From Colwellia sp. (GTDB lineage: Bacteria; Pseudomonadota; Gammaproteobacteria; Enterobacterales; Alteromonadaceae): DNA of 44,510 nucleotides. Location of the stretch: contig JALJPA010000011.1 in NCBI GenBank assembly GCA_022969215.1, positions 1 to 44,510 on the forward strand, given 5' to 3'. Each line of letters starts with the position of its first letter. Positions within the stretch are counted from its first letter, which is position 1. Both the position numbers and the translations under genes were made by a program. Below the pieces are notes generated by a model, which did not search any database, had not been told where the DNA came from, and was given only the letters and a program-made list of their open reading frames with translations. Shown here piece after piece: positions 22,169 through 25,745 of this stretch.

Positions 22169-22192
22169 TTGGCTGTATTTAAAAACAGCCAA
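22169..22192 (-). terminator. Putative terminator of the J-domain operon
   Basis: TTGGCTGT and ACAGCCAA pair in an 8-bp stem just past the last gene of the operon. On the minus strand the stem is followed by TTCTTACCCC and then TTTTTT, so the T-tract is displaced. Confidence 0.5.
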
Positions 22193-22197
22193 GGAGC

Positions 22198-23118
22198 TTA
22201 GACTTCATCAGGTCTTAAATAAGCGATATCATCTTCATCGTCGGCATGAAAATCGTAACCACCTTCAAAATCATCATTCAATTCAACCGATAGGGTAATA
22301 GGCAACTCTAATATCTCTTGAATAAAGATGGTAATATCAGTTTGTTGCTTAATGATGCTTTTAAATTCAGAAAAATCTAATAACTCAATTTCTTGCAAGT
22401 AATTTCTAGTAGGTATCGATAGTTGCTCGGTGAGTTTAACGATACAAGTTTGCAATTTATCAAGCAGCACATCTTTTTCTATGCTGATAAGATAAGTGTT
22501 TAACGCTTGATATAAAGAGCTAGTAAACACTTTTTTATCCGAATCAATAAGTAATAATGCAATAGCGCTATTAAGAAATCTTTGCAATTCAAAGGTTAAT
22601 ATATCTTCATCATTCTCAATAAACAATGTATTAGCACTATAGTTCGCGGCAATGCTTTTATAAACATCTAATAGCTTAGCGCTTTTATAGCTTTCTTTCA
22701 TTAAATTGGCATGCATAAGGCTGATATCAGCGGTGTCATTGATGGCTAAAGCATAAGTACTGATCGAAATACCTTCAAAGAATGAAGGTGATACTTTCTT
22801 CAGTTGCGCATATTTAGCCCAGCCCGCTCGAAAGCAATAAACAATGCCTTGAGTTTTTATAATCTCTTTTGCTTTATCCGCATCGTTATCACACAGTTCT
22901 AATAAACCTAAATTGCTAATACCTAGAACAATCTCGCAGCCTTTTTTAATTTGGTCGGCATAAATTATCGATAAGTTATCCGAAGCAATCCGTAACGACA
23001 TATCGATTAATTGTTGTTTGAGCTTAGCTATAAACTCGGGAGAAAAATAGCCATCACTTTCTCCGTCTTTTAAAACCAAAAGTAGAAAAGGATGATTTCT
23101 TAACTCTGCTATTTTCAT
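22198..23118 (-). CDS. Unknown acidic helical protein, last gene of the J-domain operon
   Basis: A 306-residue protein I do not recognise. It lacks a signal peptide and transmembrane segments, so it is cytoplasmic. Most of it is predicted by eye to be helical (for example FLNSAIALLLIDSD, VLLDKLQTCIVKLTEQL). It ends in a strongly acidic tail with ELNDDFEGG and HADDEDD. AGGA precedes the ATG. Upstream, 49 bp separate it from a 215-residue partner, and all four genes of the cluster run the same way. A remote link to the DUF6178-like helical-repeat proteins is a guess only. A client-, scaffold- or assembly-related role with the J-domain protein is inferred from context. Confidence 0.7.
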   Translation of the reverse strand: MKIAELRNHPFLLLVLKDGESDGYFSPEFIAKLKQQLIDMSLRIASDNLSIIYADQIKKGCEIVLGISNLGLLELCDNDADKAKEIIKTQGIVYCFRAGWAKYAQLKKVSPSFFEGISISTYALAINDTADISLMHANLMKESYKSAKLLDVYKSIAANYSANTLFIENDEDILTFELQRFLNSAIALLLIDSDKKVFTSSLYQALNTYLISIEKDVLLDKLQTCIVKLTEQLSIPTRNYLQEIELLDFSEFKSIIKQQTDITIFIQEILELPITLSVELNDDFEGGYDFHADDEDDIAYLRPDEV

Positions 23119-23167
23119 TAATGAATCCTAGTTATATAAAGCTGTATGGTAATATATTTTTTAAATT

Positions 23168-23815
23168 CTACAGTGGCGCAAACATATCATCAGTGTCTAT
23201 TTCCACTGAGGTTACTCTTTGTTTATTGGCATTATCTTTCAACGCTTTTTCGACGTTTGCTAGCGTGCCATTGCTACTTACTACCATAACTTCACGATAG
23301 GCATCTTCATCTAATGATTTAATTTTCATTAGCAGCTCTTCGATACTGCCAGATGTTTGCTCTTCGTCTTCTTCAATTTCAGAGAAATCATGACCAACAA
23401 ACGGCAGAGACAAATATAATAGGCCAAAGTCATCTTCAACAATGGCTTTTAATACTTCTAACTGTTTTTCTTCATCATCGGTAGAAAGAAAAATTTGTGA
23501 TAATAAACTGTGTGCTTCAGTTTGCGCACAAAACACATGATCTTCATCCATATTCTGCCAATAAGACGGCTCAACATTTAATAGCTGTTTAATCGACTCG
23601 GCATCCATTAACCAGGTAGCGATAGAAGGAATGGTGGCATCGTGCTCTCTAACAATTTTAGCCACGGTTAAAATATCCATCTCGGTTAATACCGCCATCA
23701 TGGTTTCATCACCATGTTCTGCAGCAATAGCCTCTAATGAAGTACCTGCGCGTCTACCGCTTTGTTGTGCTATTTCGATAATATCAGTAGCCAGAATGAG
23801 TGCGTTTTTTGTCAC
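23168..23815 (-). CDS. Unknown helical-repeat protein of the J-domain operon
   Basis: A 215-residue cytoplasmic protein from a GTG start (23813-23815) preceded by AGGA. The body consists of repeated short helices reading like an alpha-solenoid (EHGDETMMAVLTEMDILTVA, ATWLMDAESIKQLLNVEPSYW, EKQLEVLKAIVEDDFGLLYL). An acidic linker follows (SEIEEDEEQTSG), then a further helix region. No enzyme motif is visible. The style resembles DUF6178-like or FliG/MgtE-like N-repeats, but I cannot assign it. It lies 49 bp upstream of the 306-residue gene and 73 bp downstream of the 153-residue gene. Confidence 0.7.
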   Translation of the reverse strand: MTKNALILATDIIEIAQQSGRRAGTSLEAIAAEHGDETMMAVLTEMDILTVAKIVREHDATIPSIATWLMDAESIKQLLNVEPSYWQNMDEDHVFCAQTEAHSLLSQIFLSTDDEEKQLEVLKAIVEDDFGLLYLSLPFVGHDFSEIEEDEEQTSGSIEELLMKIKSLDEDAYREVMVVSSNGTLANVEKALKDNANKQRVTSVEIDTDDMFAPL

Positions 23816-23888
23816 GGTTATTCCTTAAAAAGTCTTTGTATTTGTTATTAGATGCCTAATTCAATTCATTAGGACAATTCACTTTTTA

Positions 23889-24350
23889 CTAGTAGTTCTC
23901 ATCAAAATCATCTGATGAATAATCATCAATTTGCTCATAATCATCCGCTACAGCTTTTAAAGGTGTCGCATCATAGCGGTTATAAAAATGAATAACTAAC
24001 ACAGCAATTTTTAAATCTTGTTCACAATCGTTCATCATTTCGCTTATGCAGGCTCTGGCATCCGCATGTACACCAACGAATGGTTTTACCTCTGCCCAAG
24101 AAGGCTCATTGCTTAAGTCGACTAAGGCCAAATTTTTACTATCAATTCTGATTTTGGTGGTTATAGCCATAGCTAACTGATCAACCATACCGGTAAATAG
24201 TGAAGGCATAGCCTGTAACTGGACAAATAGATTATCTAAATAAATAGATAATAATTCAGGATTTTCAGGATCCGTTAACGAGGTCATATTTTCTAAATAC
24301 ATAGAAAAATCGTCGGTTAAATAATCAGGTATATTTTTGTCAGATTGCAA
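23889..24350 (-). CDS. Unknown small acidic protein of the J-domain operon
   Basis: A 153-residue protein starting at TTG (24348-24350) behind AGGA. It has no signal peptide. It is helical and acidic, with a very acidic C-terminal tail rich in Asp/Tyr (DDYEQIDDYSSDDFDENY). A conserved-looking core, HADARACISEMMNDCEQDL, contains two Cys. I recognise no family. It is the second gene of the cluster, between the J-domain gene and the 215-residue gene. The three unknown products share acidic composition and helical character, which suggests they work together (inference). Confidence 0.65.
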   Translation of the reverse strand: MQSDKNIPDYLTDDFSMYLENMTSLTDPENPELLSIYLDNLFVQLQAMPSLFTGMVDQLAMAITTKIRIDSKNLALVDLSNEPSWAEVKPFVGVHADARACISEMMNDCEQDLKIAVLVIHFYNRYDATPLKAVADDYEQIDDYSSDDFDENY

Positions 24351-24450
24351 AGGTTGTTTCCTAGCTACATGTGTTAAAAGTTGTGTGTGTTCAAATTAAG
24401 AGTTTTGTGTATTTTCTATGTGAGATATTGGCTGGTGTTTAGCTCAACGC

Positions 24451-24483
24451 CTAACTTAATACCTAACTTAATACCTAACTTAA
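24451..24483. repeat. 12-bp tandem repeat carrying in-frame stop codons
   Basis: CTAACTTAATAC occurs twice plus a nine-base part copy. On the minus strand each unit is in frame with the J-domain gene and holds a TAG, so the gene ends in a run of three in-frame stops (LS-stop, VLS-stop, VLS-stop). Confidence 0.8.
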
Positions 24484-24735
24484 GGCATTATGCCAAAAGG
24501 AATCAGCAACCTCTCGGGGATCCGTAATAATGGTATAGTTACTTTTCAAATACAAAGCACGCTTTTTAGGATCCGAAATAGCATCATAGGACTTTTGAAT
24601 TAATTGAAACTTTTCTCCATCCTCAACACTTGTAGTTTTATCTGGGTGATATTTATTCGCGAGTTTTCGATAGGCTTTTTTGATCTCGATGGTCGTCGCA
24701 TCTCTACCTACACCTAACTGTTCAAAGTGATCCAT
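24475..24735 (-). CDS. Stand-alone J-domain (DnaJ-like) protein
   Basis: An 86-residue protein that is almost entirely a J domain. Helices II and III flank an intact HPD motif ([15 protein letters not shown]), followed by [20 protein letters not shown]. No Gly/Phe linker, zinc domain or client-binding domain is present, so this is a class III J-protein that would recruit and stimulate an Hsp70 (DnaK) for a dedicated client. It heads an apparent operon with three unknown acidic proteins, which are the obvious candidate clients or partners (inference). Confidence 0.88.
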
Positions 24736-25085: not shown

Positions 25086-25745
25086 ATGAATAATAACAAA
25101 AACTTTATTGCTAGCCTTTTTCTATTACTCACGTTAACTGCTTGTTTTGGCGGTGACCCCGCAATAGAAAAAGCTGATAGTTTTATTACTAAGCAAGCAA
25201 TAGATAAAACAGATATAAGGTGGAAAACCACCTTAACTAAGCCGCCATTACTTACCTTCACTCAAGGTAAAGATTATTTTTGGGATCTGCAAACAAATCA
25301 AGGCAAGCTCACTATCAAGCTATTAACCGATTCTGCACCTATGCATGTTTCTAGTACCATTTACTTAACGGAACTTGGTTTCTATGATGAATTGATTTTT
25401 CATCGTGTTATCCCCGGCTTTATGGCACAAGGTGGTGACCCTACAGGTACTGGTGCTGGTAACCCTGGTTATAAGTATGATGGCGAATTTGACGGTGAAG
25501 CAAATCATAGCGAAGCGGGAACATTAAGCATGGCAAATTCTGGCCCTGGTACCGATGGCAGCCAATTTTTCTTAACCTTTAAAGCGACGCCTTTTTTAGA
25601 TGGCAAACACACTGTTTTTGGTAAAGTTGTTGAGGATGAAGATGACAGCTTAACTAAAATTGAAGCGTTAGGCAGTAGAAGTGGCAGAACCACAGAAGTG
25701 GTTAAAATTATTAAAGCAACAATTCGTATCGAAAATAGCAAATAA
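25086..25745 (+). CDS. Lipoprotein cyclophilin-type peptidyl-prolyl isomerase
   Basis: A 219-residue protein. The N-terminus is a lipoprotein signal ([13 protein letters not shown]; lipobox LTAC with Cys20), so it is membrane-anchored and faces the periplasm. The cyclophilin domain (about 65-215) shows [19 protein letters not shown] (catalytic Arg in FHRV), [17 protein letters not shown] and LDGKHTVFG, all intact. It would catalyse cis-trans isomerisation of prolyl bonds in exported proteins. It is monocistronic, followed by a strong hairpin. Confidence 0.93.

Follow-up and report, generated by a model that had tools for sequence, protein, structure and literature searches.

A divergent, Colwellia-type atcJABC operon and the relation of its AtcC protein to DUF6178

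The closest described relative of the operon treated here is atcJABC of Shewanella oneidensis (SO_1850, SO_1849, SO_1848, and SO_1846), which was described in 2019 and has a role in growth at low temperature (PMC6715715). According to that paper, AtcJ binds AtcC through its tail with a Kd of 7 nM, AtcC in turn binds AtcB, and mutants in J, B, or C have strongly reduced growth at 7 degrees (PMC6715715). A meeting report states further that AtcB contacts RNA polymerase (PMC7871303), and PMC10939069 cites a later Atc study, Weber et al. 2023. HscB-IscU is also reported as a pair in which a class C J protein is dedicated to a partner encoded next to it (PMC6715715), with the difference that HscB relies on an Hsp70 of its own, HscA, and acts in Fe-S assembly. 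The main text of PMC6715715 does not name Colwellia, and a literature search, outside which Weber et al. 2023 fell, returned no paper on the Colwellia-type branch of the system. The system itself is already described, and the Colwellia-type branch is not claimed here as unpublished.

Colwellia is a genus known for cold-loving species. The window, i.e., the whole stretch of 44,510 nucleotides that was analyzed (Colwellia sp., contig JALJPA010000011.1), carries on its minus strand a block of four genes, which the reading of its ORFs gives in the order 86, 153, 215, and 306 aa, followed by a hairpin:

24475..24735, minus strand: atcJ-like gene, 86 aa, ATG start (Pfam DnaJ, NCBIfam AtcJ model, and tail motif)
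23889..24350, minus strand: atcA-like gene, 153 aa, TTG start, acidic C-terminal tail (NCBIfam AtcA and alignment)
23168..23815, minus strand: atcB-like gene, 215 aa, GTG start, helical product (NCBIfam AtcB, alignment, dN/dS, and structure model)
22198..23118, minus strand: atcC-like gene, 306 aa, ATG start, acidic tail (NCBIfam AtcC, DUF6178, and alignment)
22169..22192, minus strand: hairpin immediately behind the last stop codon, a weak terminator candidate (read from the sequence)

The intergenic gaps J-A, A-B, and B-C measure 124, 73, and 49 bp, and the layout of same-strand genes given by the initial annotation of this DNA is thus exact by ORF coordinates. All four frames are real genes under purifying selection, because dN is far below dS when the window is compared with six relatives (dN/dS < 0.2 for every gene); the TTG start of atcA is kept in five of the six relatives checked. 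The three partner proteins had been called acidic and helical; the first holds for all three and the second, as a prediction, for the two that were modeled: the pI values lie at 4.05-4.52 (4.05, 4.20, and 4.52), acidic residues fill 9 of the last 25 positions of the 153-aa protein and 11 of those of the 306-aa protein, the two for which an acidic C-terminal end had been noted, and the AlphaFold2 models of the 215- and 306-aa proteins are all-helical (mean pLDDT 76.4 and 68.1, respectively). The hairpin proposed to end the operon is present (arms at 22169-22176 and 22185-22192), but the term terminator-like is weak for it, because the T run begins about 10 bases past the stem and the output of the terminator scan does not contain it. 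Promoter-like sites (5 found versus 14.3 expected by chance) give no support for promoters.

The four proteins match, in operon order (4/4), the NCBIfam models of AtcJ (66.5 bits, E 2.3e-18, cut-off 150), AtcA (24.9 bits, E 1.5e-5, cut-off 200), AtcB (82.1 bits, E 4.1e-23, cut-off 440), and AtcC (45.1 bits, E 9e-12, cut-off 370), all of them far under the curated equivalog cut-offs of NF050028, NF047888, NF047889, and NF047890. A canonical locus, L067, used as positive control, scored over all four cut-offs, and a second Colwellia-type locus, L064, scored like the window, including a general DnaJ model that outscores the AtcJ model. For the J protein of the window this difference is 73.2 versus 66.5 bits (NCBIfam), and its identity as AtcJ therefore rests on its tail and its neighbors. 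Among Pfam families, the first protein is a DnaJ (75.5 bits), and the other three have no family above cut-off; a search for anti-phage defense systems with PADLOC gave 0 matches for the four proteins. When the J, B, and C proteins of the window were used as blastp queries, each recovered all 8 canonical loci, with identities over the aligned parts of 35-43%, 31-34%, and 23-30%, respectively. In the alignments, identity between the two branches is 35-43% for AtcJ, 18-25% for AtcA, 27-28% for AtcB, and 18-21% for AtcC. The window AtcA found 2 of the 8 canonical AtcA proteins by blastp, and the other 6 canonical atcA genes were identified from their position, with atcJ on one side and atcB on the other.

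Like the S. oneidensis operon, the window block has four genes in the same order and on one strand, a short class C J protein comes first, the three partners are related to AtcA, AtcB, and AtcC, and the atcJ-atcA gap is similar (124 bp in the window, 120 bp in S. oneidensis). The J protein consists of a J-domain at residues 2-62, in which the HPD motif is intact at residues 30-32, as first reported from the sequence, and of a short C-terminal part of 24 residues that contains P73-x7-W81; in its small size, its intact HPD, and its brief C-terminal extension it agrees with the J protein of atcJABC. P73 and W81 are invariant in all 27 aligned AtcJ rows, 19 of them Colwellia-type and 8 canonical (L046 was left out, and the contig of L061 does not include atcJ). 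Weber et al. 2023 reportedly treat a P-x7-W motif in this extension of AtcJ. HscB models match the window protein weakly and through the J-domain, with 20.9 bits at best (NCBIfam).

In the window's genome, which is 87% complete, the AtcJ profile matches three J-domains, one with an internal stop, and the genome has two full-length Hsp70 genes, nearly equal in score. The latter are located at G000:C400:19051-20841 and G000:C381:21962-23752, and the first adjoins a DnaJ-like J-domain match.

Conservation of the block was followed in 20 Colwellia-type loci (18 drawn from the 26 genomes of the genus that have AtcC, and two from family f16) and in 8 canonical loci, fetched from the 19 genomes over the AtcB cut-off. 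The order J-A-B-C on one strand is found in 19/20 Colwellia-type and 8/8 canonical loci; the exception, L061, is cut after atcB by a contig end. The J-domain neighbors are thus conserved in relatives as a block. In one locus (L062, genome G024), atcC is split into two overlapping frames with stops next to full-length atcJ, atcA, and atcB, from either a sequencing error or decay. With that broken locus left out, the A-B and B-C gaps of the Colwellia-type loci are 25-194 and 17-108 bp; in the 8 canonical loci they span -1 to 13 and 9 to 12 bp. A cyclophilin-like and a kinase-like gene, so named by reading of the sequence, flank the operon in some relatives. Of the 20 Colwellia-type loci, 7 have the former and 4 a close homologue of the latter; no close homologue of either was seen in the 8 canonical loci. 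As hints to function they were set aside since they are not conserved beyond some relatives, and the conserved unit is therefore the four genes. In the window, the cyclophilin-like gene, which would encode a lipoprotein, lies at 25086-25745, divergently upstream of atcJ.

Within the genus, 28 of 39 genomes have AtcB, which in one of them is a fragment located at the end of a contig; the 11 that lack it are also those without AtcC, and they include two single-contig genomes, G011 and G036. The operon thus seems to be lost or gained as a unit, and the genus can live without it, because 11 of 39 genomes lack it. In the f16 genus, AtcB was found in 3 of 9 genomes. A plasmid search with AtcB returned one record, from Aeromonas caviae, of 4.9 Mb, with 31% identity over 62% of the protein. 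A class-wide search with the AtcB alignment hit 2 of 321, the window itself and a stop-containing fragment (E 5.8e-4), and the fragment was taken as noise.

AtcB is the most conserved of the four proteins (dN 0.011-0.080 with dS 0.73-1.20, window versus six relatives), and its identity to the window protein is 86-99% across the 20 Colwellia-type loci. This slow evolution would fit a contact with a conserved partner, without proving it. The Colwellia-type protein keeps the AtcB core and the D-x-M-F-x-x-L end and lacks most of the acidic linker, so that the window protein has 215 aa as opposed to about 253 aa in S. oneidensis. At that end (window residues 209-215), four positions are invariant in 22/22 rows; the confidence of the AtcB model is very low there, as might be the case for a short binding motif. 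By sequence, AtcB has no match under E 0.17 among solved structures, and Foldseek with its model gave no match at E <= 0.001.

AtcC diverged further. The alignment across the branches is limited to residues about 10-101 (hhalign probability 95.9), the C-terminal halves have no detectable match, and an acidic tail is present on the Colwellia-type protein, different from canonical AtcC. Because alignment of AtcC between the branches persists in the N-terminal domain alone, our guess is that this domain may be the receiver of the AtcJ tail or of AtcB. Among solved structures, a sequence match of AtcC to IcaR, a TetR-type repressor (E 0.0018, over profile positions 140-247), found no support from Foldseek, which with the AtcC model had no match at E <= 0.001.

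By homology, gene order, J-domain, tail motif, and selection on all four genes, the locus is a divergent atcJABC operon; as judged from the sequences, it belongs to a branch separate from the canonical one. The reading we prefer, with a probability of about 0.82, is that this Colwellia-type operon posts DnaK to a cold-growth target via AtcJ-AtcC-AtcB. Following S. oneidensis, AtcJ would stimulate DnaK through its HPD J-domain and dock tightly on AtcC through the short P-x7-W tail, AtcC would hold AtcB, and AtcB would tie the complex to its target in the cell, reportedly RNA polymerase. In this way DnaK would be posted to a target needed for growth in the cold, with AtcA as a presumed accessory. 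For the window organism, we infer the binding, the target, and the cold phenotype.

A different view was taken in the initial annotation, which regarded the block as a new Hsp70-assisted assembly or quality-control module unrelated to any described system. Its central idea, that a class C J protein is dedicated to partners encoded with it, is sound, and one can see what suggested novelty, as Pfam assigns a family above cut-off to the J protein alone and AtcB and AtcC have no convincing solved or fold relative. Nevertheless, the proteins called unrecognised all match NCBIfam Atc models, though under the cut-offs, and the supposedly undescribed module has its homologs in a known, characterised system, atcJABC of S. 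oneidensis. With four proteins homologous to atcJABC in order, a conserved gene order, and a shared tail motif, an unrelated module is extremely improbable.

A more serious alternative accepts the common ancestry and assigns the Colwellia-type operon another job, in which the AtcJ-AtcC-AtcB-DnaK chain is kept and serves a target or a stress other than cold growth. It arises because the C-terminal half of AtcC and the linker of AtcB differ between the branches. The C-terminal halves of AtcC do not match, the AtcB linker is about 27 alignment columns shorter in the Colwellia-type branch, whose AtcC has the acidic tail, and the split in AtcB is clean: among 148 genomes of the order, 19 are over the cut-off with 458-497 bits, 3 score near 80 bits, and none falls between. 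On the other hand, the J-domain, the tail motif, the core and C-terminal end of AtcB, and the gene order are all kept. Furthermore, AtcB occurs in 17 of 118 genomes of the family sample as one copy each, in either the long, canonical frame (257-260, 6 genomes) or the short one (218, 11 genomes), which is expected if the two forms are equivalents that replace each other. Weighed together, these points make a different job unlikely, and the posting of DnaK to a cold-growth target stays the preferred reading.

The divergent AtcC also connects the operon to DUF6178 (PF19676). A resemblance to DUF6178- or MgtE-like repeats had been guessed for the 215-aa protein, and neither family is among the Pfam matches of that protein; the DUF6178 resemblance is real as a family link, only it belongs to the 306-aa protein. 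The window AtcC reaches 25.3 bits against the Pfam profile, with a cut-off of 25.5 and over profile positions 294-357 of 561 only, and the gathering score, missed by the window, is barely passed by a relative (G014, 25.6 bits). Matches to PF19676 are found in 19 of 26 AtcC proteins (Pfam, E up to 1), the best with 3.6e-7. In a comparison of alignments, AtcC residues 6-127 align with positions 288-405 of DUF6178 (hhalign probability 95, E 3e-8); the DUF6178 alignment was built from 31 of the 33 loci L124-L156, as L126 gave no frame and L127 was set aside. As a control, the reversed DUF6178 alignment gave E 0.81 against the full AtcC set and 0.28 against the Colwellia-type rows. In the other direction, the AtcC profile finds 11 ORF records (10 distinct) in the DUF6178 loci at E <= 0.01. 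The DUF6178 profile matches 20/20 Colwellia-type and 0/8 canonical AtcC proteins, and the canonical rows alone give a weak link (probability 12.8, E 0.002), so that the connection rests on the Colwellia-type rows. What the window AtcC shares both with canonical AtcC and with DUF6178 is its N-terminal domain, about residues 8-110.

As far as these alignments go, the relation concerns one homologous domain and does not make AtcC a member of the family. DUF6178 differs in being found in larger proteins, mostly of 549-633 aa, in Desulfobacterota, and within the fetched DUF6178 loci AtcJ, AtcA, and AtcB have no match; neither do these three match the DUF6178 alignment. The C-terminal half of AtcC does not match the C-terminal part of DUF6178 (E 0.11), and a second, collinear DUF6178 piece appears in 2 of 20 matched AtcC rows. 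The idea that DUF6178 is an AtcB-AtcC fusion, with AtcB as its N-terminal part, was rejected (hhalign E 0.055, probability 1), as was LGL..F[RK]xG as a common signature, since its strict form is present in 5/31 DUF6178 rows (a similar pattern is found in 26/28 AtcC rows).

In Desulfobacterota, 66 of 148 genomes have DUF6178 over cut-off, and in the sample of the window's phylum 1 of 398 does; at E <= 0.001 the latter count is 2 of 398, both Colwellia-type AtcC, one of them that of the window. The Desulfobacterota sample was reached through a 16S probe, with Desulfosarcina widdelii, a member of that phylum, as the center record. Twenty of the 67 Desulfobacterota genomes with a DUF6178 match were searched for an AtcJ-like protein, and none was found, although one with a strongly diverged tail would escape; the J-domain matches there stop short of the tail tryptophan of AtcJ, with one weak exception, a frame of 436 aa in which the match covers positions 4-82 of the 86 in the model. 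Three Atc-carrying genomes, used as control, show full-length AtcJ-profile matches. The shared domain therefore seems to work in Desulfobacterota without a dedicated AtcJ. The 10 proteins that neighbor three DUF6178 genes include MFS transporters, a methyltransferase, metabolic enzymes, and a response regulator, with no chaperone among them. An MFS transporter gene directly adjoins the DUF6178 gene in 3/3 Desulfobacterota loci scanned (L157, L158, and L159). In another genome of this phylum, G645, weak N-terminal and central DUF6178 matches lie on separate contigs, C95 and C108, in frames of 279 and 595 aa.

A tentative extension, which we consider possible and rather doubtful, is that AtcC represents a scaffold domain of wider occurrence and that Atc is a DnaK-recruiting add-on to an older scaffold. 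If this reading is true, the Colwellia-type AtcC forms the link between canonical AtcC and DUF6178, and the AtcJ-receiving domain therefore exists in Desulfobacterota; an AtcC-type domain would then be present in anaerobes inside a larger protein without a dedicated J protein. The link may also serve as a handle on DUF6178, a family for which the literature search found no paper. For Colwellia, the comparison gives a name to a conserved operon in which curated models would recognize a J-domain protein and call the other three products hypothetical, and the divergent branch points to the constrained parts of the Atc network: the tail of AtcJ, the core of AtcB with its D-x-M-F-x-x-L end, and the N-terminal domain of AtcC.
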